35,605 bases of DNA from a virus: IMG/VR virus record IMGVR_UViG_3300036045_000041, positions 1 through 35,605 of that record; one strand, 5' to 3'. A program made the position numbers and the translations under genes. The notes below the pieces were generated by a model that saw only the letters and a program-made list of their open reading frames with translations, made no database searches and was not told the origin of the DNA. Below are positions 4,073-35,605 of this stretch, in pieces (within the stretch, counting starts at the first letter, position 1; each line of letters starts with the position of its first letter).

Positions 4073-4077
4073 TCAAT

Positions 4078-4293
4078 ATGACAAAAGATGACCACGTAAC
4101 CAACTTGCAATTATACCAAGAGATTATGAAGCTCCACGAAAAGATGGATACTATTACTACAACTAGGATTGCTCCACTTGAGAGAGCTGTTGATCGAATA
4201 CTTGTATACGCTGGTATAATAGGGGTTGGAGTAAGTGCGGTTATAACCGTAACTATAGCATATATAAAAGACAAGATAAGCAAACTTATATGA
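4078..4293 (+). CDS. Small coiled-coil/transmembrane protein, XhlA-like lysis accessory
   Basis: The ATG at 4078 is preferred over the in-frame ATG at 4036, which lies inside the preceding gene. The 71-aa product has an N-terminal helical part (LYQEIMKLHEKMDTI) and one hydrophobic segment at about 42-64, followed by KDKISK. This layout matches haemolysin XhlA-type proteins, which help holins or endolysins at the membrane. It overlaps the C39-like endolysin gene by four bases (ATGA-type coupling) and a holin-like gene follows, so a lysis function is a reasonable inference. Confidence 0.6.
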   Translation: MTKDDHVTNLQLYQEIMKLHEKMDTITTTRIAPLERAVDRILVYAGIIGVGVSAVITVTIAYIKDKISKLI

Positions 4294-5231
4294 CACTGCT
4301 TTCACAAAGAGATAAACGGTGGAAAGATATAAAGCTTGGAACCTCAAATACAACTTTGGGAGAGTATGGGTGTACCATTACATGTATTTCCATGATTATA
4401 GGAACTACCCCCGATGTGGCAAATGAAAGACTAAAATCTGTTAATGGTTTTGCTGAGGGTAATTTAGTTATTTGGTCAAAACTAGAAGAAGCATTTCCTG
4501 GTATTAAAATTAAAAGAGTTTGGACATATGATAACGATGATGTTTTAAAAAATGTCCCCAATGTATTGGTTGAAGTAGACGGAAAACCAATTGGTGGGTA
4601 TAGACATTGGGTTGTATATATAGGAAATAAACGCTTGGTTGACCCTTGGACGGGAATGGAGGGGTCAACTAGTCAATACCCCTCCCCCCTTTCTTACTGC
4701 GTGATTTTGGGTAAATGGAATAAACCCTCTCCTGTAACCGATGATCAAAAAATAATTGATGAGTTGCGTTTAGAACGTGACAAAAATTGGCAATCCTATC
4801 AAGCTGAAATTAAAAAACGAGAGGAAGCTGAAAAACAAGCCCAACAAGCAAACATAGAACTAAATGGTACTTCTGCAGAATTGCAGGCTTTTAGGGGCAC
4901 TATACGGTCCTACGCAACCCTTCTAGGAGTCAAAGAGACGGAAACAGAAAAGATGGTGGGCGAGATTAAACGCCTAATTGAAATTGAAACTATTTATGAG
5001 TCAAGCCAATCAACCATCAGGGACCTTCAAAGAAATGGTGAATTTTTAGCAGAAGAGAATGAAAAGTTTGAAAGAGAACTTATAAAAGCTGCCAATGAAA
5101 AAAAAGATCTTTTCTCAGATCTTGAAAAGTGTAAAGCAGAAAAAGTTAACAATGGTTTGGCATACTATTCTTGGTTTACGAGAGCTTGGTCATTGTTTAG
5201 AATATTTTTTTTGAGAAAGAGAGGTGAATGA
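4290..5231 (+). CDS. Peptidase C39-like endolysin with C-terminal coiled coil
   Basis: The N-terminal ~140 residues carry a papain-fold C39-like signature: SQRDKRW at 5-11, the catalytic-type Cys28 in YGCTIT, His106 in YRHWVVY and Asp118 in VDPWTG. This family cleaves peptide bonds, and in phages such domains act on peptidoglycan cross-bridges. Residues about 150-285 are a long Glu/Lys/Gln coiled coil, and the C-terminus (YYSWFTRAWSLFRIFFLRKR) is aromatic and basic, probably membrane-binding. It lies between two small membrane proteins, the expected place of an endolysin. The coiled-coil fusion is unusual for an endolysin; a virion-associated hydrolase is an alternative. Confidence 0.7.
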   Translation: MTLLSQRDKRWKDIKLGTSNTTLGEYGCTITCISMIIGTTPDVANERLKSVNGFAEGNLVIWSKLEEAFPGIKIKRVWTYDNDDVLKNVPNVLVEVDGKPIGGYRHWVVYIGNKRLVDPWTGMEGSTSQYPSPLSYCVILGKWNKPSPVTDDQKIIDELRLERDKNWQSYQAEIKKREEAEKQAQQANIELNGTSAELQAFRGTIRSYATLLGVKETETEKMVGEIKRLIEIETIYESSQSTIRDLQRNGEFLAEENEKFERELIKAANEKKDLFSDLEKCKAEKVNNGLAYYSWFTRAWSLFRIFFLRKRGE

Positions 5232-5232
5232 T

Positions 5233-5460
5233 ATGAAGGAAGCAGCATTAAAGTTGGCTTTTATTCGTTTTTTAAGGACTGTGATTCCTCAAATTCCTGC
5301 AATGGTTGCTTTTGTTCAATCAACAATTGATCCCACAACCGTTCCTGGATTTGTACCGCCAACCCTAGTTCTTCTTGGTGCAATTGCAACAGCCGTTGAT
5401 AAGTTTGCCAGAGAACTGGGATTATATACTGAGATAAAAAATGTTTTTACAGGAAAATGA
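5233..5460 (+). CDS. Holin-like small membrane protein
   Basis: I prefer the ATG at 5233, spaced properly from GAGAGGTGA at 5219-5227; a GTG at 5224 is in frame but overlaps this ribosome-binding site. The 75-aa product has two moderately hydrophobic stretches (about 8-27 and 43-58) separated by a Pro-rich turn, and short charged ends. This resembles small phage holins, though the hydrophobicity is modest. It directly follows the C39-like endolysin and overlaps the next gene by four bases. Assignment rests on size, hydrophobicity and neighbours. Confidence 0.6.
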   Translation: MKEAALKLAFIRFLRTVIPQIPAMVAFVQSTIDPTTVPGFVPPTLVLLGAIATAVDKFARELGLYTEIKNVFTGK

Positions 5461-5747
5461 AAAGGGAATTAATAACACTATTAGGATTATCAACCGCGGT
5501 TTTTACAGCCGGAATTACTAGAGAATCTGATTGTATAGGACCAACAAAGAATTATGACAATGTAATCACCTGTCCGTCAAAAGATGGTCAGGTGATTTAT
5601 ACAAGAGATGGGGCTGAAATACAAACTAATCATGATGAAATATATATAACCAATACACATAATCAGGTTATATATGGATATACAAGAGAACATAGAGATT
5701 GGGGAAACCCAGAATTTTTTATGGTTGATTATGGAGAGGATACATGA
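5457..5747 (+). CDS. Hypothetical protein with N-terminal hydrophobic segment
   Basis: This 96-aa product starts in an ATGA overlap with the holin-like gene. Residues about 4-20 (ELITLLGLSTAVFTAGI) are hydrophobic after MKR, so it may be exported or membrane-anchored. The rest is beta-rich with many Thr, Tyr and Asp. Two cysteines (about 26 and 39) could form a disulphide outside the membrane. Following a holin and endolysin, a spanin-like or cell-envelope role is conceivable, but no spanin motif or lipobox is clear, so the function remains unknown. Confidence 0.6.
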   Translation: MKRELITLLGLSTAVFTAGITRESDCIGPTKNYDNVITCPSKDGQVIYTRDGAEIQTNHDEIYITNTHNQVIYGYTREHRDWGNPEFFMVDYGEDT

Positions 5748-5985
5748 TGCTGCCAATCAAGTTGTTGACGAGTTTGTTGTAAAAAACTTACTCGAAGCGT
5801 CAAATTCAGCAAAACGAGCAAATTTACCTGAATTTCAGGTAACAAGAATAAGAAAAAATGAAATAGTTAGCGAATTAAATAGTTGGATATGGTTTACAAC
5901 AAGAGGCAACACAGAATTATATGATACATATAAAGCAGAAATTATTGAAGGAGAAATATGTGTTAGGGGGATACCCATGAAATAG
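5731..5985 (+). CDS. Hypothetical protein (84 aa)
   Basis: The frame is open from 5674, but the ATG at 5731 limits the overlap with the upstream gene to 17 bases and is preferred. The protein is helical in its first half (HDAANQVVDEFVVKNLLEAS) and mixed afterwards, with a Trp-containing SWIWF near the middle. No family is recognised. It is part of a run of small unknown genes between the lysis genes and the metallophosphoesterase. Confidence 0.55.
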   Translation: MERIHDAANQVVDEFVVKNLLEASNSAKRANLPEFQVTRIRKNEIVSELNSWIWFTTRGNTELYDTYKAEIIEGEICVRGIPMK

Positions 5986-6241: not shown

Positions 6242-7158
6242 TGAAAGAAAATAAAGAAGGGAGGGACATGAAAAACTATCTGCCTGTTTTTCCAGACAAG
6301 AAAAAATCAGTAGTTTTATATGACCGCATAACACAACACATTGAGGAAGCTCAAAAAATTCGTGGGGAGATGGACGTGGGTCAAGAGAGAGCAACATGGA
6401 TAGTTGATGGTGATTATAAAGATCTACCTGTAATGCTAGTCTATATGACTGATGTTCACTATGGTTCAATAGGTGTTGATTATCAAATACTCAATAGGCA
6501 CTTTAATATTGTAGAGAATACACCTAACACCTATTTAGTTATGGGGGGTGACACCATAGATAACTTTGCAATTAAACATGCACACGCAGGGATCATGGGT
6601 GATGCAGTTCCACCCCAGGTGCAAGCACAGGCCTTTATGGAAAAGCTTTTGGACTTTGATAGAAAGAGTAAGCTTGGGGCTATATGCTATGGAAATCATG
6701 AGGATTGGGTTGATATAGCGGGGCTTGATTATTATCAAACCTTTATGAATGATATATCAGCGCCAATATTTACTAAGGGGGGAATGCTTCATGCGTTGGT
6801 GCAAAACCAAGAATATAGAATTGGCATAACCCATAAGTTTTGGGGAGTATCAAAATTAAATATAACCAACGCTCCCAAAAGAGCACTCGAGTTTGGTTTC
6901 CCCGAAGCTGAAATAATGCTGGTTGGGGATGATCATCAATCAAGTGCTGAGATATTTGATCGGGGTGGAAAACGAATGTTGGTGGTTGATGGGGGGACCT
7001 ATAAAACCATGGATGGAACGGGTAAAAAGTGGGGTCTGGGACACGCAGGAAGAAGTGGTTACGCAATCCTTCTTTGGCCTAACCAACACAAGTTTGAAGT
7101 TTTTGCAGATATTGAGTCTGGAAAACAGATAATGGACTCATTAATAGTGTTGAAATAA
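6241..7158 (+). CDS. Calcineurin-like metallophosphoesterase
   Basis: The 305-aa protein has metallophosphoesterase signatures in order: TDVHYGS (Asp71 and His73), GGDTID (102-107), GNHED (151-155), GITHKFWG near 194 and GDDHQ near 228. These residues bind a two-metal centre that hydrolyses phosphomono- or diesters. The substrate cannot be told; phage relatives are usually unassigned. The start at 6241 has AAAGGA upstream; an ATG at 6268 preceded by AAGGGAGGG is also in frame and may be the main start. It is the last gene of the late region, immediately before a leader with two terminators. Confidence 0.85.
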   Translation: MKENKEGRDMKNYLPVFPDKKKSVVLYDRITQHIEEAQKIRGEMDVGQERATWIVDGDYKDLPVMLVYMTDVHYGSIGVDYQILNRHFNIVENTPNTYLVMGGDTIDNFAIKHAHAGIMGDAVPPQVQAQAFMEKLLDFDRKSKLGAICYGNHEDWVDIAGLDYYQTFMNDISAPIFTKGGMLHALVQNQEYRIGITHKFWGVSKLNITNAPKRALEFGFPEAEIMLVGDDHQSSAEIFDRGGKRMLVVDGGTYKTMDGTGKKWGLGHAGRSGYAILLWPNQHKFEVFADIESGKQIMDSLIVLK

Positions 7159-7186
7159 CTTTACAATTAATTGATAAAATGAGGTG

Positions 7187-7216
7187 TTGACAAATATAAA
7201 TAAGTGTGCTTAAGTT
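7187..7216 (+). promoter_or_regulatory. Promoter-like -35 box upstream of the replication block
   Basis: TTGACA at 7187-7192 is followed, after 17-18 bp, by a poor -10 (TTAAGT or TAAGTT). Its start would be near 7222, upstream of two terminator-like hairpins and 174 bp before the replication gene. The -35 matches the other TTGACA boxes in this genome, but the -10 is weak, so an activator may be needed. Confidence 0.4.
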
Positions 7217-7232
7217 GATATTACATTGATAA

Positions 7233-7269
7233 GATCCATGAGCTTCGGGGAACTGGGATCATTTTTTAT
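7233..7269 (+). terminator. Terminator-like hairpin 1 in the early leader
   Basis: GATCC at 7233-7237 pairs with GGATC at 7256-7260. Inside, AG(c)TTC at 7241-7246 pairs with GAACT at 7250-7254 around a GGG loop. The tract ATTTTTTAT follows. This fits a rho-independent terminator for the late transcript ending at 7158, or an attenuator of the early transcript. Confidence 0.6.
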
Positions 7270-7299
7270 AGGGATTTTGTGAGGTGGGGTACCCGAAGT

Positions 7300-7328
7300 A
7301 CTCTGTCTCACAGAGTTCCTATTTTTTT
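7300..7328 (+). terminator. Terminator-like hairpin 2 in the early leader
   Basis: ACTCTGT at 7300-7306 and ACAGAGT at 7310-7316 form a perfect 7-bp stem with a CTC loop, followed by a short gap and a run of seven T (ending near 7328). It lies 33 bp upstream of the replication gene start. Together with hairpin 1 it suggests a block between late and early transcription. Confidence 0.65.
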
Positions 7329-7360
7329 ATGGAAAATATAACAAAAGGTAAAATAAACAT

Positions 7361-9136: not shown

Positions 9137-9165
9137 TTGACATATGTTGTCAACCATGATAATTT
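9137..9165 (+). promoter_or_regulatory. Early promoter with embedded TTGAC-N7-GTCAA operator (copy 1)
   Basis: TTGACA at 9137-9142, a 17-bp spacer and TAATTT at 9160-9165 form a good sigma70-type promoter. The -35 is the left arm of an inverted repeat, TTGACATATGTTGTCAA at 9137-9153. The same 22 bases (TTGACA to CATG) recur at 11350. The transcript would start near 9172, just before AAAGGAG at 9174-9180 and the ATG at 9188. Confidence 0.7.
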
Positions 9166-9187
9166 TTAATTATAAAGGAGAAAGAAT

Positions 9188-9436
9188 ATGAATGAACAAA
9201 CAATTTACGATGATTTTTTATCAGTTAGAAATTTTGTAAAGACTTGTTTTTTACAAGGATTAATTGATGAACAAGAGTTTGATAAAAAATATAAAGCAAC
9301 TTTAGAAAAGTACGCTAAAGAATTAGTTGATGATGGTTGGTTAGATTTTGTAAACGCTGAGATTTCCCTTCTTGAATACGAGAAAAACGATAACAAGGCA
9401 ATGGAGGAAAATATGTATCAGGGGAGATCGCTATGA
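9188..9436 (+). CDS. Hypothetical acidic helical protein (82 aa)
   Basis: The start is set by AAAGGAG at 9174-9180. The protein is acidic and helical (EQEFDKKYKATLEKYAKELVDDGW) with no recognised domain. It is the first gene after a strong operator-bearing promoter and overlaps the annealing-protein gene by four bases (ATGA), so it is probably co-expressed with the recombination function. Its role is unknown. Confidence 0.7.
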   Translation: MNEQTIYDDFLSVRNFVKTCFLQGLIDEQEFDKKYKATLEKYAKELVDDGWLDFVNAEISLLEYEKNDNKAMEENMYQGRSL

Positions 9437-9921
9437 TTACCATACATGGTAAGCAGTATATTACCGTAGCTGAGAGGATAGTTGCAGCTCATGAAGCTCT
9501 AAAGAGTATTTCAATAACCACCGAGGTTTTATTTCAAAACCCCGTAGTTATTAAAGCAACGGTTACCACATCCAAGGGCGTATTTACTGGGATATCCGCT
9601 GCCAATCCAAACAAAACCATCGAGAAGATGTCTCCGTATGAGGTTGCAGAAACCTCAGCAGTAGGCAGAGCATTAGGCTTCGCAGGATATGGAGTCGTAG
9701 AAGGCGTTGCAACAGCCGATGAAATGATAAAGGCCTCTACCATCGGAAATGACAATCAAATCGTTTCTAGCGATACTACAGGGGCTAATTTACCCAAGAT
9801 TTATGGCGATACGGTAACTATATCTGAAGAAGATTTAGGGGTTTGTAGTAAATGTGGATCACCAAACGCTTTAAGCAAAGTTGGCAACAAATACTGCTCT
9901 GCTAAGTGTTGGATGAACTAA
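9433..9921 (+). CDS. Single-strand annealing protein (Erf/Rad52-like) with C-terminal zinc ribbon
   Basis: The 162-aa protein has the pattern of short phage annealing proteins: an N-terminal strand/helix region beginning YITVAERIVAAHEAL, and the signature IEKMSPYEVAETSAVGRALG with a following Gly-rich turn. These proteins pair complementary single strands during phage recombination and replication. The C-terminus adds a CxxC...CxxxC zinc ribbon (CSKCGS at about 137 and KYCSAKCW at the end), as in several Erf-like or ssDNA-binding relatives. A RusA-like resolvase is encoded nearby, supporting a recombination module. The exact superfamily is uncertain. Confidence 0.7.
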   Translation: MITIHGKQYITVAERIVAAHEALKSISITTEVLFQNPVVIKATVTTSKGVFTGISAANPNKTIEKMSPYEVAETSAVGRALGFAGYGVVEGVATADEMIKASTIGNDNQIVSSDTTGANLPKIYGDTVTISEEDLGVCSKCGSPNALSKVGNKYCSAKCWMN

Positions 9922-9922
9922 T

Positions 9923-10102
9923 ATGATAGAAAACTATTGTGATGAATGTAAAAAAATAATAACGTGGGGAGAGTACAGGTACTCAATTACTCATTTTAAA
10001 AGATGCAGAGAGACTGATAATGGACTTTGTGTTGAACATCAAAGAAAACAACGGGATATTGAATATCCAAAAAAATTAGCAGAGATCATTAACAAATTGT
10101 GA
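9923..10102 (+). CDS. Small zinc-finger-like protein (59 aa)
   Basis: An ATG one base after the annealing-protein stop opens a 59-codon frame ending in TGA at 10100-10102. It contains CDECKK (6-11) and later CRETDNGLCVEH, giving four cysteines and a histidine suitable for a zinc knuckle. The C-terminal half is a charged helix (RKQRDIEYPKKLAEIINK). The tight junction with the previous gene and the metal-ligand pattern support a real gene. It may bind nucleic acid alongside the annealing protein. Confidence 0.65.
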   Translation: MIENYCDECKKIITWGEYRYSITHFKRCRETDNGLCVEHQRKQRDIEYPKKLAEIINKL

Positions 10103-10109
10103 ATGAGTA

Positions 10110-10270
10110 TTGAAGGGTTCTGTTGAATTAAATAAAACAGGCTTATACCCCACAGGGGGTGTGACTGGAAGTTAAGCCCTTCAATCCTCATACCTGGATA
10201 GAGTCTATGGACAACTTAGTCAACTGAAGTAACTAAGGAGGAAATTTCGCTCTATCCAAGTGTGAGGAGG
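10110..10270 (+). ncRNA. Candidate structured RNA / cis-regulatory leader
   Basis: Domain 1 (10110-10184) is closed by TTGAAGGG/CCCTTCAA, a perfect 8-bp stem. It holds hairpins CTGTT/AACAG (10120/10136), GCTTA/TAAGC (10141/10173) and, inside the last, ACCCC/GGGGT (10147/10156). Domain 2 (10186-10267) is a long stem: CCTCATAC/GTGTGAGG (8 bp, one GU), a 2x2 internal loop, then GGATAGAG/CTCTATCC (8 bp). It is capped by CTTAGT/ACTAAG. The closing strand covers part of the ribosome-binding site GAGGAGG of the gene at 10279. It matches no RNA family I know. A translational switch, a stable phage RNA or an origin structure are possible. Confidence 0.65.
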
Positions 10271-10278
10271 TAAAACAC

Positions 10279-10452
10279 ATGAACAGATCAATGAAAGCTG
10301 TATTGTTTTTACAGAAGGCAGACGAAAAAACACTGAACATGTATCAGTTAAATCGTTTATTAAAAACAAACTGGTCACCCCGAGCCATTAGTGAAGCCAG
10401 AAGAGACGGGATAAAAATAATTGGAAATAACCCATATACGTTAGAAGGATAA
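10279..10452 (+). CDS. Small winged-helix/HTH-like DNA-binding protein (57 aa)
   Basis: The ATG follows GAGGAGG (10264-10270) by eight bases. The sequence LNMYQLNRLLKTNWSPRAISEARRDGIKIIG followed by NPYTLEG resembles compact winged helices of phage regulators, in which a helix pair is followed by an [RK]ISE[LA]R..G-I-I wing. It could be a transcription or replication regulator. The Shine-Dalgarno site lies partly in the long stem of the structured RNA just upstream, so its translation may be controlled by folding. Confidence 0.6.
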   Translation: MNRSMKAVLFLQKADEKTLNMYQLNRLLKTNWSPRAISEARRDGIKIIGNNPYTLEG

Positions 10453-10454
10453 TC

Positions 10455-10802
10455 ATGAAAACAATCCAGCATAACGCGATAATAACGAGTATACGTTCAC
10501 GTAAAGATAGATCAATATCATATTCAGTAGAAACCCCCGAATTAAGTCATCAGGAAAAAGCACTATTTTTTGAATTACAAAATTTAAATGTAGTAATCTC
10601 TATTTTACCCAAAGATGAGCTGGAAGCGCCAGAGTATAAAGTTGAGAAGGATATAGATCAAAAAAGCCCATCATCCAGAATGAGAAATGTAATTTATATT
10701 TTATACAAACAATCCGGAGATAACCGTGATTTTGAATTATACTATAAAAACACTATGGAGGTTTTAATTCAGAAACTGAAAGAAAAAATAGAGAATGTAT
10801 GA
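10455..10802 (+). CDS. Conserved phage hypothetical protein upstream of RusA (115 aa)
   Basis: The protein starts with strands (NAIITSIRSRKDRSISYSVETPEL) and contains HQEKALFFELQNLNVV. This pattern is common for small phage proteins beside recombination genes. The C-terminal half (about 70-115) is a long helix after a charged linker. It overlaps the RusA-like gene by four bases (ATGA), so both are translated from one message. No catalytic motif is visible; a DNA-binding or recombination-accessory role is a guess. Confidence 0.7.
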   Translation: MKTIQHNAIITSIRSRKDRSISYSVETPELSHQEKALFFELQNLNVVISILPKDELEAPEYKVEKDIDQKSPSSRMRNVIYILYKQSGDNRDFELYYKNTMEVLIQKLKEKIENV

Positions 10803-11140
10803 AGTTTGTATTTCCAATCTGTCCCACCACTAACCATATGTATGGTCATAGTGGTCATAGAACTTATAAAACCAAAGATTCAATTGAGTGGGAACATGAA
10901 GCGCAAGCTGTGATCTTATCAACTAAAGGCAGAAAAAAATTAACAGGCGATGTATATGTAGGGGTAGAGTTTTTTTTGAAACGTGATCGGGATTTAGATA
11001 ATAACAAGCTGTTGTATGATGCTTTACAGGATAACGGAATTATTGAAAACGACAGACAAATAATACATTTAAATGTAAAAAAATATATAGATAAGAAAAA
11101 CCCAAGAATAGAATTGCAGATAGAACAAATTGACAAATAG
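10799..11140 (+). CDS. rusA: RusA-like Holliday junction resolvase
   Basis: The 113-aa length and layout match RusA endonucleases. The N-terminus carries the nucleotide-contacting loop PTTNHMYGHSGHRTYKTKD, and the catalytic acidic residues appear as Asp65 and Asp67 in KRDRDLDN, then KLLYDALQ and Asp85 in IIENDRQI. RusA dimers cut four-way junctions formed by recombination and clear branches before packaging. It closes an operon with the upstream hypothetical protein and lies near the annealing protein. Confidence 0.9.
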   Translation: MKFVFPICPTTNHMYGHSGHRTYKTKDSIEWEHEAQAVILSTKGRKKLTGDVYVGVEFFLKRDRDLDNNKLLYDALQDNGIIENDRQIIHLNVKKYIDKKNPRIELQIEQIDK

Positions 11141-11159
11141 CGTCAACATATAGTATAAG
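11130..11159 (+). promoter_or_regulatory. Leaderless-type promoter with TTGAC-N7-GTCAA operator (copy 2)
   Basis: TTGACA at 11130-11135, an 18-bp spacer and TATAAG at 11154-11159 form a promoter overlapping the end of rusA. The -35 begins an inverted repeat TTGACAAATAGCGTCAA (11130-11146), same arms and spacing as at 9137. Transcription should begin at about 11166, within two bases of the ATG at 11168. Confidence 0.65.
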
Positions 11160-11167
11160 TGAACAAT

Positions 11168-11353
11168 ATGGAGCAATTAAATGAAGATCAAGTTAGGAAA
11201 ATGAGAAGGGCTCGCCGAATGGAAATTTACAAAAAAAACCAAGAGGATCACATATCTTATTCTAGGCTGGCTGTAGAATATGGGATTACCGCTTCTCGTG
11301 TTTCAAGGATTATTGCCAAAGTTAGAAAAGAATTAAATAAATTGGCATATTGA
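11168..11353 (+). CDS. Small helix-turn-helix regulator (sigma region 4-like, 61 aa)
   Basis: I chose the ATG at 11168; a GTG at 11159 is in frame but lies inside the -10 box. The protein has a basic N-terminal helix (RKMRRARRMEIYKKNQ) and an HTH at about 30-55: ISYSRLAVEYGITASRVSRI, in the style of sigma region 4 or Hin-type HTHs. Both its own promoter and the next one carry the TTGAC-N7-GTCAA repeat, so it is a candidate for binding that site and for autoregulation. That link is inferred from position only. Confidence 0.7.
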   Translation: MEQLNEDQVRKMRRARRMEIYKKNQEDHISYSRLAVEYGITASRVSRIIAKVRKELNKLAY

Positions 11354-11378
11354 CATATGTTGTCAACCATGGTATATA
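11350..11378 (+). promoter_or_regulatory. Leaderless-type promoter with TTGAC-N7-GTCAA operator (copy 3)
   Basis: TTGACA at 11350-11355, a 17-bp spacer and TATATA at 11373-11378. The inverted repeat at 11350-11366 is identical to that at 9137-9153. The start codon of the next gene at 11387 is 37 bp from the first base of TTGACA, so the predicted transcript begins within about two bases of the ATG and has no ribosome-binding site. Confidence 0.75.
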
Positions 11379-11386
11379 TTTAATAT

Positions 11387-11935
11387 ATGAAACAAAAAGC
11401 CATAGGTTCTAATCAACACCAAACAATCTATAAAAGAACTAAGTTTAGTCACTTTGGTAAAGTTTTAGGATTACTTCTTTTTCTCTATATAATGTTTTTA
11501 GCAATTAACTTCACGAGATCTTACGCCACTGGTCTTGCAACTGATCACTGGCTAAATTCATTTGAATATGGGACCCAGCCATCAGTAAATTTTCAAGTTG
11601 AGTTAGCCTCAACGTCTGGACTATTAAACGAAGAAGAAATGGAAGCCACAAAAGAAAATATAGTTTGGTACATTATGAAAATTTTTGGTAAACACGGCAC
11701 AGATGTAGCAGTAAAAGCTATAAGTTGTTTTTATAGTGAATCAGGACTCAGAACCGATGCATATAATTTCAATAGAAATGGAACTGAAGACAGAGGGGTA
11801 GCACAAATAAACTCTATACACGGATTAACCCCTAATGATGCCCATAATTATAGAAAAAATATAGATATGGCAGAGAAAGTATATTTAAGAGCCGGAAAGA
11901 GTTTTAATCCATGGTATGGAAAGATGTGTAAATAA
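11387..11935 (+). CDS. Membrane-anchored lytic transglycosylase (SLT-like)
   Basis: Residues about 25-42 (KVLGLLLFLYIMFLAINF) form an N-terminal membrane anchor. The C-terminal ~100 residues resemble a lysozyme-like SLT fold: catalytic-type Glu in CFYSESGLRTDAYN, followed by NGTEDRGVAQINSIHG and AEKVYLRAGKSFNPW. Such enzymes cleave the glycan strands of peptidoglycan. It lies in the early region under its own promoter, away from the late lysis cassette, so timing or purpose may differ (cell-wall remodelling, exclusion of other phages, or lysis). It probably has an outward-facing catalytic domain. Confidence 0.75.
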   Translation: MKQKAIGSNQHQTIYKRTKFSHFGKVLGLLLFLYIMFLAINFTRSYATGLATDHWLNSFEYGTQPSVNFQVELASTSGLLNEEEMEATKENIVWYIMKIFGKHGTDVAVKAISCFYSESGLRTDAYNFNRNGTEDRGVAQINSIHGLTPNDAHNYRKNIDMAEKVYLRAGKSFNPWYGKMCK

Positions 11936-12135: not shown

Positions 12136-13209
12136 ATGGAAAATAAAATAATAACTAAATTAACAAAAACACAGGAAAAACAAATTCCTAAATTTATTGA
12201 AAAATATGTTGATATGGCTAAGCAGCCAACAGATAAAAAAAAAGCTACAAGAGCTATTCAAAATTTATATAAATATGCTGGCTTTGATAAACCAATAGTT
12301 ATTTACGCCGAATCTCCGTTTGCTGCTGTTGTTATGGCAGCTGTGACAAGAATTTTAGTTGAGAATAAATTGCTTAGCAACACTTCCAAACTCGGTTCCC
12401 AACTCCATTCCAAACTCGGTTCCCAACTCCATTCCCAACTCTATTCCCAACTCTATTCCCAACTCCATTCCCAACTCGATTCCAAACTCTATTCCCAACT
12501 CCATTCCCAACTCTATTCCCAACTCGATTCCCAACTCGATTCCAAACTCGATTCCAAACTCTATTCCCAACTTTCAAAAATTAATAATGATTGGTGGTTA
12601 ATAATATGGTGGTTAATTTGGGCTGGATGGTATGAATTTGCTAAATATATTGGAGTTAAATTTGATAACAAAATTTTCAAAATATTCATGGACTTTGTAA
12701 CTAATGTGTCATTTATTATTCCCTATGAAGGAATAGCATTTGTATCTGAAACACCTAAAACCATTAGTTGGGATAATAAAAGATTAAGTAATAAAAATGC
12801 TCCAGCCGTTGAATATAAAGATGGATATGCTTTATATTGTATTGATGGAGTTGATGTTTCAGAAAAAATAGTAATGCATCCAGAAACATTAACTAAAAAA
12901 GATTGGATTGAAGAAGAAAACACTGAAGTAAGACGAATAATTCAAGATCAAATGAAAGAGCGATTTGTAACAGAGGTCGGGGGTAAATTAATAGCAAAAC
13001 ATAAAAATAATAAAATAGGTGAGATTATAGAGATAGATATTTCACCAGATCCAGAAAAATTTGCGCGATATATTCACGCTCAAGACTGGTCAACAAATAG
13101 AATGTATTTTGTCAGAATACCACCTACAATTAGTGACCCAATAGAGGCGCAAAAGTGGGTCTATGACTGGCCAGAAAATACAGATTTTAAGGTTAGATAT
13201 AGAACCTAG
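12136..13209 (+). CDS. DUF6745-like protein with 16 tetrapeptide repeats
   Basis: The N-terminus (about 1-80) ends in IVIYAESPFAAVVMAAVTR. Residues 84-147 are S-[QK]-L-[HYDG] tetrapeptides, 16 in a row. After a Trp-rich link (NDWWLIIWWLIWAGWYEF) the C-terminal half contains APAVEYKDGYALYCIDGVDV, EENTEVRRIIQDQMKERF and MYFVRIPPTI. This order, including an x-Q-[LV]-x tetrapeptide zone in the middle, matches from memory a widespread bacterial family of unknown function (DUF6745). The following gene is its usual small neighbour. No biochemical activity is established. The repeat zone probably forms an amphipathic, regularly turning structure. Confidence 0.7.
   Translation: MENKIITKLTKTQEKQIPKFIEKYVDMAKQPTDKKKATRAIQNLYKYAGFDKPIVIYAESPFAAVVMAAVTRILVENKLLSNTSKLGSQLHSKLGSQLHSQLYSQLYSQLHSQLDSKLYSQLHSQLYSQLDSQLDSKLDSKLYSQLSKINNDWWLIIWWLIWAGWYEFAKYIGVKFDNKIFKIFMDFVTNVSFIIPYEGIAFVSETPKTISWDNKRLSNKNAPAVEYKDGYALYCIDGVDVSEKIVMHPETLTKKDWIEEENTEVRRIIQDQMKERFVTEVGGKLIAKHKNNKIGEIIEIDISPDPEKFARYIHAQDWSTNRMYFVRIPPTISDPIEAQKWVYDWPENTDFKVRYRT
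12385..12576 (+). repeat. Sixteen tandem 12-bp units inside the DUF6745-like gene
   Basis: Each unit is TCC-[C/A]AA-CTC-NNT, starting at 12385 and repeating every 12 bp through 12576. Among the first 15 units, bases differ only at the first position of codon 2 (Gln/Lys) and at codon 4 (mostly His/Tyr/Asp by first-base change, Gly twice). Third positions are invariant. The array is long, nearly perfect and in frame, so it can change length by slippage without frameshift. Confidence 0.95.
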
Positions 13210-13527: not shown

Positions 13528-13530
13528 TTA

Positions 13531-13582
13531 TGACAACTAATGTGACAACTTATAAAAATAACACGACAACTTAACCGGTTAA
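13531..13582. promoter_or_regulatory. Repeated box and palindrome upstream of tRNA-Tyr
   Basis: Three near-identical boxes, TGACAACTAA (13531), TGACAACTTA (13543) and CGACAACTTA (13564), are followed by the perfect 12-bp palindrome TTAACCGGTTAA (13571-13582). A TATAAA lies at 13551-13556 but its -35 is poor. These may be operator sites controlling the tRNA and following genes, or residues of an attachment or recombination site. Confidence 0.4.
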
Positions 13583-13604
13583 TTAGTTTTCAATCACATT
13601 GAAA

Positions 13605-13689
13605 GCCACCGTATACGGATAAAGACACCGCCCAGACTGTAAATCTGGTGCTCAGTAGAGCTGGCTAGGTGCAATTCCTAGGGGTGGCA
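13605..13689 (+). tRNA. tRNA-Tyr (GUA)
   Basis: The fold is class II. Acceptor GCCACCG (13605-13611) pairs with GGGTGGC (13682-13688), except the innermost G-G. The D stem is CGG/CCG. The anticodon arm is CCAGA-CTGTAAA-TCTGG with GTA at 13639-13641. The variable arm is GCTC-AGTA-GAGC (13650-13661) and the T arm CTAGG-TGCAATT-CCTAG, whose loop has G where T is usual. The discriminator is A13689, and CCA is not encoded. The long variable arm and GTA anticodon fit bacterial tyrosine tRNA. Confidence 0.85.
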
Positions 13690-14063: not shown

Positions 14064-14282
14064 ATGCTTACCGGTATAACCTGTAGACACATAATAAACG
14101 TAACAAGATTGGGTAGTTTGGTTTTGATTCGTAAGGGTAACTTTAAAAAAGTTGAGTGTGGTAAGTTGATGATTAAAATTGGTTATTGTAGATACCAATG
14201 TACGTCTGGACACATTAGAATATATCCAACAGAACAATATGACGGTCAGGCTATTTTAGGAAAAATCAATGGGGATGAATAG
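14064..14282 (+). CDS. Small hypothetical Cys-containing protein (72 aa)
   Basis: This begins two bases after the previous stop and encodes a basic, beta-rich 72-aa protein with cysteines at about 8, 32, 42 and 46 (GYCRYQC), suggesting a metal-binding or disulphide core. Its 3' end overlaps the convergent glycosyltransferase gene by 37 bp. The family is not recognised. Confidence 0.5.
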   Translation: MLTGITCRHIINVTRLGSLVLIRKGNFKKVECGKLMIKIGYCRYQCTSGHIRIYPTEQYDGQAILGKINGDE

Positions 14283-14923
14283 GTTGGTGTTTTATATGGT
14301 TTATCCATTGTTCCAGATAAATAAACACTTTTCCCTATACCAAATCCGCGATTGTGAACAAGATCGGGAACAGTAATAACAAGATCTCCGTGTTGTTTAA
14401 GTGTTTGGTGATACCCGTCATCATCACCACTATATGGATAGGCATTTAATGACTTACGAGTAAATCCATACACAGAAGAAACAAAATCGTTAACAACACC
14501 AACCGTTGAGGTTAACATTTTTTCAATAATAAATCGGTTATCATTGGGATCATAGTTTTTGTAGTCAAATAATCCCACGGCCCCTACAGGATAATTTTTT
14601 AGAATAAAAACAGATTTAGATAGCCAACCCTCTTTAAAAATTAAATCTGTATCAATTTTGAATATATAATTACCTTCACACAAACTAATACAATTTAAAA
14701 ATGATCTACCAACTCCTCTGTTTTTTCCGTTAGAAACTATTAATTTTGATATTTTATCTTGAGATAAATATTGGTTGGATAGATTGTAACAATCCCTATC
14801 TCCACCGTCACAATTTACAATTATTTCACATGGATAGTCTATAGTTTTGATAATTGAGTCTAAACACTCATTTAACCACTCAGGCCTTTTATAAGCAAGG
14901 ATACATAAACTTGCAATTTCCAT
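14246..14923 (-). CDS. GT2-family glycosyltransferase (only minus-strand gene)
   Basis: The 225-aa protein starts with a typical GT-A segment, MEIASLCILAYKRPEWLNEC, and has the nucleotide/metal motif DTD at 91-93 in FKIDTDLIF. A C-terminal HNRGFG motif follows. It lacks a membrane segment. Such enzymes transfer a sugar from a nucleotide-sugar donor. It is the only gene on this strand and faces away from the rest of the carbohydrate cluster, with a possible shared promoter region at 14940-14990. Its 3' end overlaps a small + strand gene. Confidence 0.8.
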   Translation of the reverse strand: MEIASLCILAYKRPEWLNECLDSIIKTIDYPCEIIVNCDGGDRDCYNLSNQYLSQDKISKLIVSNGKNRGVGRSFLNCISLCEGNYIFKIDTDLIFKEGWLSKSVFILKNYPVGAVGLFDYKNYDPNDNRFIIEKMLTSTVGVVNDFVSSVYGFTRKSLNAYPYSGDDDGYHQTLKQHGDLVITVPDLVHNRGFGIGKSVYLSGTMDKPYKTPTYSSPLIFPKIA

Positions 14924-14939
14924 AAGTTAAATTTATTTA

Positions 14940-14968
14940 TTTGTAATAATGTGTATAAATGTTGACAA
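14940..14968 (-). promoter_or_regulatory. Possible minus-strand promoter sharing its -35 region
   Basis: On the minus strand TTGTCA (complement of 14963-14968) is followed after 17 bp by TACAAA (complement of 14940-14945), nine or so bases before the probable transcript start and the glycosyltransferase ATG at 14923. The -35 overlaps the TTGACA of the plus-strand promoter, so the two would compete. Confidence 0.4.
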
Positions 14969-14990
14969 TATATAAACTTTAACATATAAA
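14962..14990 (+). promoter_or_regulatory. Leaderless-type promoter of the carbohydrate cluster
   Basis: TTGACA at 14962-14967, an exact 17-bp spacer and TATAAA at 14985-14990. The start codon (GTG at 14998) is 36 bp from the first base of the -35, so the transcript should start at or next to the codon. No Shine-Dalgarno sequence is possible on such an RNA. Confidence 0.7.
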
Positions 14991-14997
14991 TATATAT

Positions 14998-15327
14998 GTG
15001 GCAAACCCAAATAATCCAGCGATATCTTTTCTTGTTCCTTACAGATGGTTTAATGAAGATAAGGAATTTTTAGGTGAAAACTTAAACAGAATGATCTTGC
15101 GCGAGGTGGGCAAAGATAGCCTATCAATTTTAGAGGGCATACTTACCTACAAGGTGGTTATATCCTATTACTACAAAGAGCCGGTAGACCTAAACACCTC
15201 CAAAACAGCATTGCAACGCTTGCTAAAGAGTTCATTCCCTAACGCTAAGTGTTTATCAGCTAGCGTAATGTTTAAGCAAAACTTCTCATACCAAATACCA
15301 ACTTGTGATTTTCAAATTTATCTCTAA
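14998..15327 (+). CDS. Hypothetical protein starting the carbohydrate cluster (109 aa)
   Basis: A GTG start is used, located where the upstream promoter predicts the RNA 5' end; the ATG two bases earlier is in another frame. The protein is mixed, with ISFLVPYRWFNEDKEF at the start and repeated hydrophobic stretches, but no motif I recognise. It is followed three bases later by a glycosyltransferase. It may be an accessory to glycan synthesis or an unrelated cargo gene. Confidence 0.55.
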   Translation: MANPNNPAISFLVPYRWFNEDKEFLGENLNRMILREVGKDSLSILEGILTYKVVISYYYKEPVDLNTSKTALQRLLKSSFPNAKCLSASVMFKQNFSYQIPTCDFQIYL

Positions 15328-15330
15328 CTT

Positions 15331-16086
15331 ATGATATCTGTCCTGATACCAACTACAGACGGGGGTTTAAAGTACCTCGTTAAACTAATCCCACAACTTA
15401 AAAAACAAGTAGCCGATATAAGCGGAGAGGTAATAGTAGCATGCAACGGTTGCAACGACGGATCGGAGAACTACCTTGCCAATAACGGTATTAAATATAT
15501 GGTGCTACCACGCAACACCACCTTCTCCCATGCTAACAACTTAATGTTTTTACAATCAAACCATAACCCACTTTTATTAAACAACGATATTGAAATCCCG
15601 GAGGGGTTTATAAAAACCATGTACGACACCATGGCTAGTAAAAATGATTACTCTATCTTTGGATGTGCAATATTCCGCATGCAAGATAAACGCATACACC
15701 ATGCAGGGGTTTACTTTACTCAAGACGGTTTACCTTATGAGTTAGGGTTACCAGTTGGAGATATTAACGGAATAGCCAATACCGATCCAAGAGTCAAGGA
15801 GTCACGTGAGGTTCCAAGTGTAACGGGTGCTTGTATGCTAATAAGACGACAGCTATACAGCGATCTAGGCGGACTTGATGAACATTACCGTACAGGTTGG
15901 GAAGATACCGACTTTGTTCTTAGGGCAAGAGAACGCGGGTTTAAAGTTTGGTATACAGGCGAAACGCAAATATATCATCACCACTTTGGATCAAGGGACA
16001 GAGGACGGTTGCAGTATGAGTTAGATAATAGAAGATTTTATGATATGGTATGGGTAACAACAGGGAGGGCAAAGAAAATAATATGA
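15331..16086 (+). CDS. GT2-family glycosyltransferase (rhamnosyltransferase-like)
   Basis: The GT-A fold is shown by MISVLIPTTDGG, a GEVIVACNGCND strand and the metal-site motif NNDIEIP (84-90). VTGACMLIRR and the GGLDEHY..GWEDTDF motif (180-195) are typical of rhamnosyl- and related GT2 enzymes. The product would transfer a deoxyhexose or similar sugar. It overlaps the next glycosyltransferase by four bases (ATGA), so both are translated together. Confidence 0.85.
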   Translation: MISVLIPTTDGGLKYLVKLIPQLKKQVADISGEVIVACNGCNDGSENYLANNGIKYMVLPRNTTFSHANNLMFLQSNHNPLLLNNDIEIPEGFIKTMYDTMASKNDYSIFGCAIFRMQDKRIHHAGVYFTQDGLPYELGLPVGDINGIANTDPRVKESREVPSVTGACMLIRRQLYSDLGGLDEHYRTGWEDTDFVLRARERGFKVWYTGETQIYHHHFGSRDRGRLQYELDNRRFYDMVWVTTGRAKKII

Positions 16087-16955
16087 AAATATCAGTAATA
16101 GTACCAGTTTGGAATAGAGTACAAAACATTAGAGAAACACTATATTGTTTAAAGGAGCAGGATATTTATGGAACCGAACATGAAGTTGAGTTTATCTTGG
16201 TTGATGATTGCTCAAATGACGGTACATCAGAGTTACTAGACGCAGCTGAATTACCACACAAGAGGGTTATACATAGAACCACAAGAGAGAGGTGGAACGC
16301 TTCAATACCACGCAATATGGCTGCTAAAGCCTCAAGTGTAGATAGCGATATGCTCTACTTTTTAGATAGCGATATCTTGTTGCCACCGGATAGATTAAGA
16401 AGGTTGGTAGATGTTTGGCATGAGGACAACGACGACGATCAAAATAGGGTAATAATAGGACAGTACCACTACATGAGAAGATGGTTAGACGCACGCAATA
16501 GGCCCGACTGGTATGTGGGAATTGAGGACTATGATGGTGATATACGCAGTCAGTCTTTTATAGATCATCCATACACTCATAAAAACAGAGGGTTAGGGTT
16601 TGCGCTTGCTTGCTTTGGTGGATCACTTGGAGTACCGCGCAAGTTGTTTTTTAAAGCAGGTGGTTTTGATGAGACCATGCTTTCAGGTGTTGAAGATGGG
16701 GACTTTGGTTTAACCCTATGGGAAACGGGCGCAGTATTTAGTTTAGATAGTGGTTTATTGGGGTGGCACAACCCACACCCCATTCACCCACAACGCACAC
16801 AGTTTATTAGGGAGTGTGTAGATAGGTTAAACGCTAAGCACAATATTGATATAGTTAAGACTACGGGTGAGGTGTATAGAACTTGGGGTGTTGATTGGGA
16901 ACCACCCAAGGCTTGGCTTGATGATGGAGGTTATAGTAAAGAGGATTTAAAATGA
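16083..16955 (+). CDS. GT2-family glycosyltransferase (290 aa)
   Basis: The ATG at 16083 is preferred over an in-frame ATG at 16050 inside the previous gene. The sequence shows MKISVIVPVWNR, FILVDDCSNDGT (38-49), the DSD motif at 95-97 and GGFDETMLSGVEDGDFGLTL in the acceptor half. This is a canonical GT2 transferase. The neighbours indicate a coordinated oligosaccharide pathway. It overlaps the epimerase gene by four bases. Confidence 0.85.
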   Translation: MKISVIVPVWNRVQNIRETLYCLKEQDIYGTEHEVEFILVDDCSNDGTSELLDAAELPHKRVIHRTTRERWNASIPRNMAAKASSVDSDMLYFLDSDILLPPDRLRRLVDVWHEDNDDDQNRVIIGQYHYMRRWLDARNRPDWYVGIEDYDGDIRSQSFIDHPYTHKNRGLGFALACFGGSLGVPRKLFFKAGGFDETMLSGVEDGDFGLTLWETGAVFSLDSGLLGWHNPHPIHPQRTQFIRECVDRLNAKHNIDIVKTTGEVYRTWGVDWEPPKAWLDDGGYSKEDLK

Positions 16956-17953
16956 AAATTTTGATATTTGGGGGGTCTGGATTTATCGGTACGAATATAG
17001 TAATTGAAGCTAAAAATAAAAGACATCAGGTTGTGGTGTTTGATTCCTTTATTAGAAAGGGAACTGAAAATAATATTCAAGCCGGAGTAGAATATATACG
17101 GGGAGATATACGTAGTCAGCAGGATTTTGAACGGATACCTAAGGGTATAGACGGAATTATAAACCTAGCCGGAAACCCAGGAGTCCCGTGGTCTATGTCG
17201 TGGCCGTTATATGACTTTTCTGTCAATGCTTTGGGCGCACTTCATGTACTTGAGTTTGCACGCAACAATGGCAATATACCAGTTATATTTGCCTCAACTA
17301 ACAAGGTATACCACGACGGAATAAACGAAATACGAATGTACCAAACAGAAACGCGCTATAAGTGGAACGACTATTCAGGTGTAACAGAAACGTTTAGCAT
17401 TGACTCACAAGGCAAACACCCAAAATCACCTTATGGCGTATCTAAAACTGCTGCCGACTTGTATCACCAAGAGTATTGGCACATGTATAAACTACCAACG
17501 GTTGTAAACCGCATGTCTTGTGTCTACGGGCTATACCAGCAGGGGGTTGAGGATCAAGGTTGGATATCACACTTTATTAAACAAATAGTTAAGGGTGACG
17601 GGAAGATCAATATTTATGGCAACGGTAAACAAGTGCGGGATATGTTATGGGGTGATGATGTAGCAAGTTTATACATAGACCAATTAGAAAACATAGAAAA
17701 GTACCAAGGTGGTGTGTATAACGTGGGTGGTGGCATAGACAACACATTCTCAATTATTGAGGCCATCGACGAGATAGAGAAACAAACTAATAAGAAAGCG
17801 GAACTATCTTACTTCGACGAGAGACCAGCAGACCAGCGCATATACATAAGCGACATAACAAAGGTGTGCAAAGTAAACGACTGGAATCCTACAGTACAAC
17901 CAAAGGAGGGAGTACGTAGGATGATCTATGAATGTCTCAATACTAATATCTAG
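16952..17953 (+). CDS. NAD-dependent sugar epimerase, CDP-paratose 2-epimerase-like SDR
   Basis: An extended SDR of 333 aa. It has the dinucleotide motif GGSGFIG (7-13), STNKVY at 115-120, the catalytic YGVSK (161-165), then CVYGLYQQGVEDQGWIS and IYGNGKQVRDMLWGDD, the pattern of CDP-paratose 2-epimerases (RfbE-like). These interconvert CDP-paratose and CDP-tyvelose. The SDR family is secure; the exact sugar is inferred from these motifs. It would supply a donor for the glycosyltransferases on each side. Confidence 0.8.
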   Translation: MKILIFGGSGFIGTNIVIEAKNKRHQVVVFDSFIRKGTENNIQAGVEYIRGDIRSQQDFERIPKGIDGIINLAGNPGVPWSMSWPLYDFSVNALGALHVLEFARNNGNIPVIFASTNKVYHDGINEIRMYQTETRYKWNDYSGVTETFSIDSQGKHPKSPYGVSKTAADLYHQEYWHMYKLPTVVNRMSCVYGLYQQGVEDQGWISHFIKQIVKGDGKINIYGNGKQVRDMLWGDDVASLYIDQLENIEKYQGGVYNVGGGIDNTFSIIEAIDEIEKQTNKKAELSYFDERPADQRIYISDITKVCKVNDWNPTVQPKEGVRRMIYECLNTNI

Positions 17954-18635
17954 CTTTAACAGATTAAGGTATTTTCTAAGTACATGGCCGACAATTAAGG
18001 ATCAATTAATAGACGGTGATGAGCTGGTTGTGGTTGAGGACGGTATTGAGAAGAACTGGAATAGCTACTTGTTAACCATAGGGGTTAGGTATCAGTTAAT
18101 AGAAACCCACAACGAGGTTTATAGATCGGGTGTTATCTCAAAAAACATAGGGTTAAAAACAGCCAGAAACCCAATCATCATCATAAATGATCCGGAGGTC
18201 ATGCATATCTCAAAGTGTATTACCGTCATGCGCGACTTTTTAAAAGAGAGACGGGCTTTTGTTGTTCCCGGAACGTTATATAGCGGTAGACATGAGGGGC
18301 AGGGCATAGAAGGATCGACTAAAATAGAAAATTCACAAGCCCCGTTTGTTGGCGGTTGTTATAGATCAGATCTAATTGATGTTGGCGGTTGGGATGAACG
18401 ATTTAAGTATTGGGGAAATGATGATAACGACCTAATGTACCGCCTAGGATTAAATCATGTAAGACATATAGTAGTACCAGAGCTTGAGATATTTCATCAG
18501 TGGCATCCTAGGCCACCAAAGCAAGCAATGGGTGATTATAACGAGTCACTACTTTATGAAAAGGACAAACCAGTTATAGCCAATATAGGCAAAAGATGGG
18601 GAGAAATAGTGGGGTCATATTATGAAAACGGTTAA
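17928..18635 (+). CDS. GT2-family glycosyltransferase (235 aa)
   Basis: This gene overlaps the end of the epimerase by 26 bp. The N-terminus MNVSILISSFNRLRYF is a GT2 start, with LVVVEDGIEKN and a variant metal site in IIINDPEV. GGCYRSDLIDVGGWDERFKYWGND is the acceptor-side motif. It ends with FHQWHPRP, which resembles a His-containing GT2 tail. It is the last glycosyltransferase of the plus-strand cluster. Confidence 0.8.
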   Translation: MNVSILISSFNRLRYFLSTWPTIKDQLIDGDELVVVEDGIEKNWNSYLLTIGVRYQLIETHNEVYRSGVISKNIGLKTARNPIIIINDPEVMHISKCITVMRDFLKERRAFVVPGTLYSGRHEGQGIEGSTKIENSQAPFVGGCYRSDLIDVGGWDERFKYWGNDDNDLMYRLGLNHVRHIVVPELEIFHQWHPRPPKQAMGDYNESLLYEKDKPVIANIGKRWGEIVGSYYENG

Positions 18636-28778: not shown

Positions 28779-28831
28779 GCTCGATTTTCACCTCAGAAGC
28801 AGTATTATTTATTGAAGGGAGGTGAAAAAAA

Positions 28832-34862: not shown

Positions 34863-35543
34863 ATGGCAGAAGGTATAAATACACCCCTGTTTGCAGATTC
34901 GGCTTTGAGATGTTACTACCGTTTTAATTCGGGATTTTTAACAACCGATAGTAAAAACTCATTAACATTAACATCAAATGGTTCCCCTGTTAATGTTAAT
35001 GGAAAATTTGGGAATGGTGTATCTTTAGACACGTCATCTTATTTTAGTAGAAACACACAATTAACAACTACAAATCCCTTTACGTTTAGTATAAATGTTT
35101 GGATTAAAGATTATACAGCTGGGTGTATTTTTTCTGCTAAAGCCGGTTCATATGAGTGGTATTTTGGAACAAATACAACGCATTTATTTGTTCATGCACA
35201 CTGGACAGATGATAGTGATAAAGATATATCAGCAACATTACCGGTTGGATATGATAGTACAAGGTGGAACATGATTACTATAACAGCGGATCAACCGGCA
35301 AGCGATGCAATAATTAAGGGTTATGTAAATAAAACGTTAGTAATAAATGACACCACATCAAGTAAAAATGTTGGAGTAGTAGAGGCCCCATATTATTTAT
35401 CTTATTTTCATATAGAGGGTAAAAATACTTCTGCTGGTAAAATAGATGATTTTATGTTTTTTGAAAATAAAATTTTAACTACAACAGAAATAGATCAATT
35501 ATATACAGAAACCGGAGGATCATTTATTTTTAACATGATATAG
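34863..35543 (+). CDS. LamG/concanavalin-like receptor-binding candidate (226 aa)
   Basis: The sequence LRCYYRFNSGFLTTDSKNSL at the start and FGNGVSLDTSSYFSRN, NPFTFSINVWIKDYTAGCIF and KIDDFMFFENKILTTTEIDQ match the LamG/ConA-like pattern of beta-sandwich lectins. It is encoded after a tail-fibre-like protein and runs to the circle junction. A role in binding a carbohydrate receptor is likely but inferred. Its last codons are also present at 1-43. Confidence 0.75.
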   Translation: MAEGINTPLFADSALRCYYRFNSGFLTTDSKNSLTLTSNGSPVNVNGKFGNGVSLDTSSYFSRNTQLTTTNPFTFSINVWIKDYTAGCIFSAKAGSYEWYFGTNTTHLFVHAHWTDDSDKDISATLPVGYDSTRWNMITITADQPASDAIIKGYVNKTLVINDTTSSKNVGVVEAPYYLSYFHIEGKNTSAGKIDDFMFFENKILTTTEIDQLYTETGGSFIFNMI

Positions 35544-35605
35544 ATATGGCTGATCCCTATACAACACTATTAGCTATTGAGAGGTCTGGTCAATTAAATC
35601 CAGCA
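35498..35605. repeat. Terminal redundancy, right copy
   Basis: Exact repeat of 1-108, see left copy. The two together give a circular unit of 35,497 bp. Confidence 0.95.
35546..35605 (+). CDS. Partial second copy of the 205-aa helical protein start
   Basis: Identical to 49-108, cut by the end of the window. This is the same gene as the one at 49, not a paralogue. Confidence 0.9.
   Translation, partial: MADPYTTLLAIERSGQLNPA

Follow-up and report, generated by a model that had tools for sequence, protein, structure and literature searches.

A predicted two-domain intercistronic RNA fold that takes in the Shine-Dalgarno sequence of a small winged-helix gene in a phage recombination operon

RNase III matures the polycistronic message between the early genes of phage T7. 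In phage T4, the genes e, soc, 49 and I-TevI carry mRNA hairpins that occlude the Shine-Dalgarno (SD) sequence, and the late transcripts of e, soc and I-TevI, which lack the 5' arm of the hairpin, are translated (PMC3014915, PMC2988022). A glutamine riboswitch has been described as phage-encoded in phage Melnitz (PMC9004378). The element described here occupies a 176-nt gap between two open reading frames (ORFs 9923-10102 and 10279-10452; genes are named by their first position) of the window, that is, the complete virus record of 35,605 bp, and the SD-occluding leader of T4 gene e appears to be its closest known kind. As in the T4 leaders, it would belong to a phage mRNA, and the downstream SD is predicted to lie in a stable helix, on what may be a polycistronic message made by read-through; as for T4 e, the neighbouring genes in relatives of this phage include peptidoglycan hydrolases. 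Unlike the T4 hairpins, the element has two domains and no internal late promoter was found in it, its target is a small HTH gene, and the phage and its probable host are unrelated to T4 and E. coli. Since an internal promoter was not found, we do not file the element as a member of the exact T4 system.

Likenesses to other described systems are also apparent. One strand of the helix that closes the junction domain also belongs to the anti-SD helix, and the computed folds change partner sharply once the SD has been transcribed, as in translational ON riboswitches, whereas the element has no known aptamer according to Rfam and no homologues, its alternative pairing does not exceed chance and its target is non-metabolic. 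Like the RNase III sites of T7 early mRNA, its predicted stem lies between cistrons, consists of two parts and spans about two helical turns, but the element differs from them in holding an SD inside the stem and in having an extra three-way junction. With the Melnitz riboswitch it would share the character of a structured regulatory RNA, here a predicted one, in a phage of small-genome bacteria, while, in contrast to phage-encoded riboswitches of known Rfam families, it matches none of these. We regard the sequence of the element as new and unclassified, and its mode of action as most likely of a known kind.

The two ends of the window carry an identical 108-nt repeat (1-108 and 35498-35605), so the phage genome is probably complete, and profile matches to a P22-like portal, a capsid and a terminase suggest a short-tailed phage. 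Nearly all genes lie on the + strand. The nearest cellular ERF genes were found in Patescibacteria genomes (L195 Levyibacteriota, L196 Paceibacterota and L200), which suggests, without proof, a patescibacterial host. Apart from the element, the DUF6745-domain protein encoded at 12136-13209 contains about 14 tandem 12-nt repeats specifying four-residue (H/Y/D)SQL-like units, with other reading frames open as well in the repeats, and a cluster of glycosyltransferase-, epimerase- and methyltransferase-like genes (14246-18635, judged from translations only) lies between the replication and packaging modules.

The gap at 10103-10278 has a minimum free energy (MFE) of -63.2 kcal/mol, compared with -40.8 +/- 4.0 kcal/mol for 1000 dinucleotide shuffles, none of which was as low (z -5.59 on the + strand, -4.37 on the - strand). 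The refuting condition named in the initial annotation, a fold no better than shuffled sequence, was thereby clearly surpassed, and the structured element as observed is confirmed as a computed property. Domain 1 alone reaches z -3.41 on the + strand and only -1.55 on the - strand, because its G-U pairs are lost on complementation, whereas domain 2 folds almost equally well on both (-5.47 and -5.14); this bias of domain 1 speaks for RNA transcribed from the + strand rather than for a structure of DNA alone. No + strand ORF of at least 40 aa is present inside the gap. When 160-nt windows were slid across the whole genome, the sole stronger + strand fold surrounded the terminator that follows the capsid gene, and the terminator region near 7272-7318 also ranked high. 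In contrast to the latter, the element has neither a terminator call nor a U tract, and an intrinsic terminator (a GC stem followed by a U tract) was rejected. That the gap stands out in its genome holds for its unusual length, but it is not unique in this respect, as the gaps at 7159-7360 (202 nt, containing a terminator) and 13528-13668 (141 nt) show.

The features of the element and of its surroundings are compiled in Table 1. Both adjacent domains fold at the positions initially proposed, and the perfect 8-bp stem of domain 1 with its nested hairpins was recovered as UUGAAGGG/CCCUUCAA, which extends to ten pairs including one U-G in the MFE fold and encloses the hairpins 10120-10140 and 10143-10164. 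The stem of domain 2 has the single interruption ascribed to it, but it is longer than the claimed 16 bp, with about 18 pairs around the C10194-A10259 mismatch. The assertion that only one G-U pair occurs did not hold, since two are found in the 10143-10164 hairpin, one in P1 and one in the domain 2 stem. Both the lower and the upper part of P4 pair with a probability of about 1 in the complete transcript. Simple SD occlusion neither needs nor explains domain 1.

Table 1. Coordinates of the folded element, its helices and the neighbouring operon features in the window.
Feature	Position	Strand	Remark
Probable promoter and palindromic operator TTGACATATGTTGTCAA, operon start	9137..9174	+	Repeat; exact copy at 11350
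ERF-like recombinase gene, zinc-binding tail	9433..9921	+	Same operon, upstream of element
59-aa cysteine-containing (zinc-ribbon-like) ORF	9923..10102	+	L282 homologue, 47% identity, E 2e-17, pairwise BLASTP
Whole structured intercistronic element	10103..10278	+	z -5.59 vs 1000 dinucleotide shuffles
Strand A, AUGAGUA	10103..10109	+	Right after ORF 9923 stop; can lengthen P1 by pairing with strand B
Domain 1, three-way junction	10110..10184	+	Fold; z -3.41 on +
P1	10110-10119/10175-10184	+	Domain 1
P2	10120-10124/10136-10140	+	Domain 1
P3	10143-10151/10156-10164	+	Domain 1
Unpaired segment, ten bases before P1 closure	10165-10174	+	Domain 1
Domain 2, long stem	10185..10268	+	Fold; z -5.47
Strand B, anti-SD UCCUCAU	10185..10191	+	Pairs with 10262-10268, p ~1, full transcript
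P4 lower, nine pairs	10185-10193/10260-10268	+	Domain 2
P4 mismatch	C10194-A10259	+	Domain 2
P4 upper, 9-10 pairs	10195-10204/10249-10258	+	Domain 2
Inner hairpin, small	10215-10237	+	Domain 2
SD GAGGAGG of gene 10279	10264..10270	+	5/7 bases inside P4
57-aa winged-helix (HTH_39-like) protein gene	10279..10452	+	HMM shared with L284/L280/L285 homologues
115-aa gene, probably coupled	10455..10802	+	2 nt after 10279; homologues in L010, L192
RusA Holliday-junction resolvase gene	10799..11140	+	PF05866, E 2.3e-16; overlaps end of 10455-10802

The element is absent from Rfam, as had been surmised: no match was obtained at gathering scores, relaxed settings returned only noise (E at least 1.5), and ARAGORN reported no tRNA or tmRNA; the element is not assigned to a known Rfam family or to either of these RNA types. 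No DNA similarity to it was detected in phage and plasmid collections. Viral contigs scanned for exact 15-mers contained 98 matches, a number close to chance, and these loci were rejected as relatives because their flanks share no similarity beyond the 15-mer. A covariance model of the single sequence found no credible match in ERF-related loci, in the records of 14 related phages or in 380 genomes from a single related phylum, a patescibacterial one, the 15-mer loci lying outside this search; its self-match on the minus strand is merely the reverse of domain 2 and was discarded. A model built from one sequence has limited reach, so this absence is weak evidence. Without a homologue of the RNA no covariation is shown, and a conserved RNA family, for which the initial annotation had itself called for homologues with covariation, is not supported. 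Searches with the single proteins 10279, 10455 and terminase were likewise unable to recover relatives, as these proteins are too divergent; the ERF gene was used as a guide instead and led to a clade of distant relatives.

Within the window, the genes around the element probably form one operon in the order 9188, ERF, 9923, element, 10279, 10455 and RusA, with the stop codon of ORF 9923 (10100-10102) bordering the element directly. A 38-nt repeat, in which TTGACATATGTTGTCAACCATG precedes an AT-rich stretch resembling a -10 element, lies at 9137 and recurs as an exact copy at 11350-11387 (chance mean 0.25), flanking the operon on both sides, and a version of its palindrome with one mismatch is located at 11130-11146. 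The two repeats resemble promoters whose -35 box is overlapped by an operator. The HTH/sigma-like protein encoded between two operator copies (11159-11353) could regulate that operator. Homologues of 10279 in L284, L280 and L285 match or approach PF14090, and since the protein groups with winged-helix HTH_39 proteins, its initial description as a small DNA-binding protein is plausible. Between 9777 and 10455, a sigma-70-like scan, which an unusual phage promoter would escape, revealed no + strand promoter scoring at least 9/12, so that neither a separate RNA nor a T4-like internal start gains support from the sequence; no U tract or terminator was seen in this interval either. The operon layout and the 9137 promoter repeat suggest that upstream transcripts may continue into 10279.

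The ATG of this gene is at 10279, and the 3' strand of P4 ends within GAGGAGG, which agrees with the earlier remark that the last stem takes in part of the ribosome-binding site; as in T4 gene e, the downstream SD is predicted to be paired in a stable helix. For 51 genes of the window, we calculated what it costs in free energy to unfold positions -16 to -5. The median is 2.9 kcal/mol, and the highest value, 15.6 kcal/mol, belongs to gene 10279, whose SD duplex is also the strongest of the 51 (-13.5 kcal/mol). The opening cost depends on the upstream length folded, being 14.8-15.5 kcal/mol with 100-150 nt and 9.3 kcal/mol with 200 nt, while it drops to 3.1 kcal/mol with 80 nt because the anti-SD strand is then cut off. 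The second most buried start among the 51 belongs to the major capsid gene 28832, whose strong SD (GGGAGGTG) is enclosed by a hairpin of ten perfect base pairs, UUUUCACCUC/GAGGUGAAAA, at 28784-28831. A parallel is offered by the related locus L282 (record G005, 35,538 bp), where the ERF gene is followed by a short ORF homologous to 9923 (47%) and then by a 70-nt hairpin (z -6.8), the 3' strand of which includes AGAGGAGG, the SD of the next gene. The latter is glucosaminidase-like, with a Pfam match under the curated cut-off. The SD is buried at the same position as in the window, in unrelated sequence and with a moderate opening cost of 4-12 kcal/mol, according to the length folded.

We therefore consider it fairly probable that the element acts in cis, as an mRNA structure between cistrons, and by default keeps gene 10279 poorly translated. 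The fold, the location and unusual burial of the SD, the operon context, the lack of a terminator and the likeness to L282 are all computed results. The mRNA would probably start at the operator-controlled 9137 promoter and run through 9188, ERF, 9923, the element, 10279 and 10455 to RusA; domain 2 would then pair UCCUCAU (10185-10191) with the SD strand (10262-10268) and block the 30S subunit. As the SD is strong but paired, initiation should stay low until the helix opens. Translation of 10455 and RusA is probably tied to that of 10279 by coupling, and as these genes abut or overlap it, they should be damped along with it. One operon could in this way yield much ERF and little HTH protein and RusA until the helix is opened, whether through a cut by RNase III, by a protein or ligand, or through an internal transcript start that escaped recognition. 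Beyond the computed results, we infer that the RNA adopts this fold in the cell, that translation is lowered, that the genes are coupled and that something opens the helix. Default repression is favoured by a fold far below the shuffles, by an SD that is both the strongest and the least accessible of 51, by the promoter repeats on both sides of the operon, by the L282 parallel, by the enrichment of strong folds 3' of ERF described below, by the similarly hidden capsid SD of this phage and by the proven SD-occluding leaders of T4; the missing RNA homologue, the structured gaps of the clade that bury no SD, the length-dependent opening cost, a domain 1 that occlusion does not require and the post hoc nature of the enrichment test weigh against it. 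If true, protein ratios within a recombination operon would be set through RNA structure by a phage whose bacterial lineage has hardly been cultivated.

A two-state switch, riboswitch-like or protein-responsive and with domain 1 as its sensor, is an unlikely explanation. Here a stabilised, extended P1 (10103-10117 with 10177-10191) would take the anti-SD strand and free the SD, which otherwise remains in the anti-SD:SD helix. A 15-nt inverted repeat (14 pairs) indeed includes the anti-SD strand, and in the computed folds of growing transcripts strands A and B pair with p ~0.99 until 10262, after which B pairs with strand C (10262-10268) with p ~1 by 10270, the A:B alternative being about 6 kcal/mol weaker than the B:C state. 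That A matches B in register would arise by chance with a probability of 0.003-0.01, the register having been picked after inspection. L282 possesses a perfect equivalent of 10 bp where its homologous ORF ends, and the upstream coupling there was matched by only one of 600 shuffles. In the window, however, a shuffled upstream segment captured the anti-SD equally well in 49 of 600 cases and reached the same strength of coupling in 127 of 600 (p 0.08-0.21), and by a looser measure at least five of the seven positions were captured in 141 of 400: mutually exclusive helices linking domain 1 and the SD are present in the folds, but not beyond these controls. Moreover, no ligand or protein is indicated for this single sequence, Rfam is silent, and the viral, genome, phage and plasmid searches yielded no conserved aptamer with covariation. 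As shuffling the upstream segment often reproduces the capture of strand B, the three-strand switch was demoted from main explanation and kept as a rival. Somewhat less likely still is an RNase III processing site, in which a cut in P4 would mature the polycistronic message and free the SD. Its position between genes of one operon fits, and the length of P4 (~18 pairs) and its mismatch are suitable as judged by T7 sites, yet sequence features do not single out such sites and domain 1 is left unexplained; cleavage of this kind would be compatible with default repression and not exclusive of it.

It is quite doubtful that the element sets timing in the manner of T4 gene e, with an early read-through mRNA silenced by the helix and a later promoter within the 5' arm giving an armless, translated mRNA. 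Although exactly this mechanism has been described for T4 e and I-TevI, no -10 element lies at the proper distance here and the promoter scan was empty. The sequence 10208-10223 weakly resembles the phage operator, with two mismatches, but sites this good arise by chance about ten times per window, and an operator hidden in the apical loop (10208) was rejected as not above chance. We hold it to be improbable that a free-standing small phage RNA merely adjoins 10279: two stable domains would suit it, and the relatives L275, L291 and L012 have structured noncoding units with duplicated promoter-like sequence, but the element has no promoter repeat upstream and no terminator, and the 3' end of its fold is the SD itself. 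More improbable again is a DNA element, be it an origin, a primosome site or a recombination site, whose hairpins would work in single-stranded DNA. Domain 2 folds on both strands and the neighbours are recombination and replication genes, which would be in keeping with it, whereas domain 1 folds clearly better on the + strand, iterons are missing and the cumulative GC skew climbs smoothly through 10 kb without any change. Among the roles left open at the outset, a regulatory leader, a separate RNA or an origin structure, the cis-acting leader is thus the best supported, the separate RNA lacking a terminator and a convincing promoter, and the origin lacking iterons and a GC-skew change and leaving the strand bias of domain 1 unaccounted for.

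Gaps of at least 60 nt were surveyed in 17 non-redundant members of the clade, counting as near those within 1.5 kb downstream of ERF. Strong folds (z < -3) were found in 9 of 22 gaps near ERF, and of the 72 gaps elsewhere 8 reached this level (Fisher p 0.003, Mann-Whitney p 5e-5). This enrichment of strong folds in gaps just 3' of the ERF-like recombinase gene is suggestive, as the test was designed after several examples had been seen. L291, L280 and L275 have structured gaps without a buried SD, and a hidden SD is therefore not what the gaps of this hot spot have in common. BLAST detected no sequence common to the structured gaps of the clade, and the idea of a shared sequence was rejected. 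If true, unclassified structured RNAs would accumulate at one position of related phage genomes (also in L285 and L012), and the position 3' of ERF is a concrete place to seek new RNA classes, given denser sampling and alignable relatives. A joint reading, which we find rather unlikely, would be that the phages of this group, probably of Patescibacteria, keep a regulatory-RNA slot just 3' of the ERF-like gene, in which fast-evolving, sequence-unrelated leaders exchange anti-SD partners and so act as translational switches for HTH, RusA or lysis genes, some via a ligand, a protein or a ribosome terminating on the zinc-ribbon gene; the window element would then be a new two-state class.

Several further structured regions were encountered in these relatives. 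L012 contains a noncoding element of about 350 nt (5370-5760, -118.6 kcal/mol) with a tRNA-like end, GCAGGG...CCCUGCCCCA, upstream of a lysozyme-like gene; it has no Rfam or ARAGORN match, and its flanking repeats recur elsewhere in the locus. In L285, a 208-nt leader of an HTH_39 gene (4966-5173; -92.3 kcal/mol for the 225 nt of 4966-5190) and a 332-nt gap (5480-5811, -120.6 kcal/mol) are both without an Rfam family, and the 141-nt gap at 6983-7123, 2 kb downstream of ERF, is the most structured of the clade survey (z -8.4). In L275 (5320-5356 versus 4305-4341) and L291 (5292-5338 versus 4075-4121), the structured gap is preceded by a second copy of the sequence upstream of ERF, and this duplicated sequence is possibly the structured gap's own promoter.
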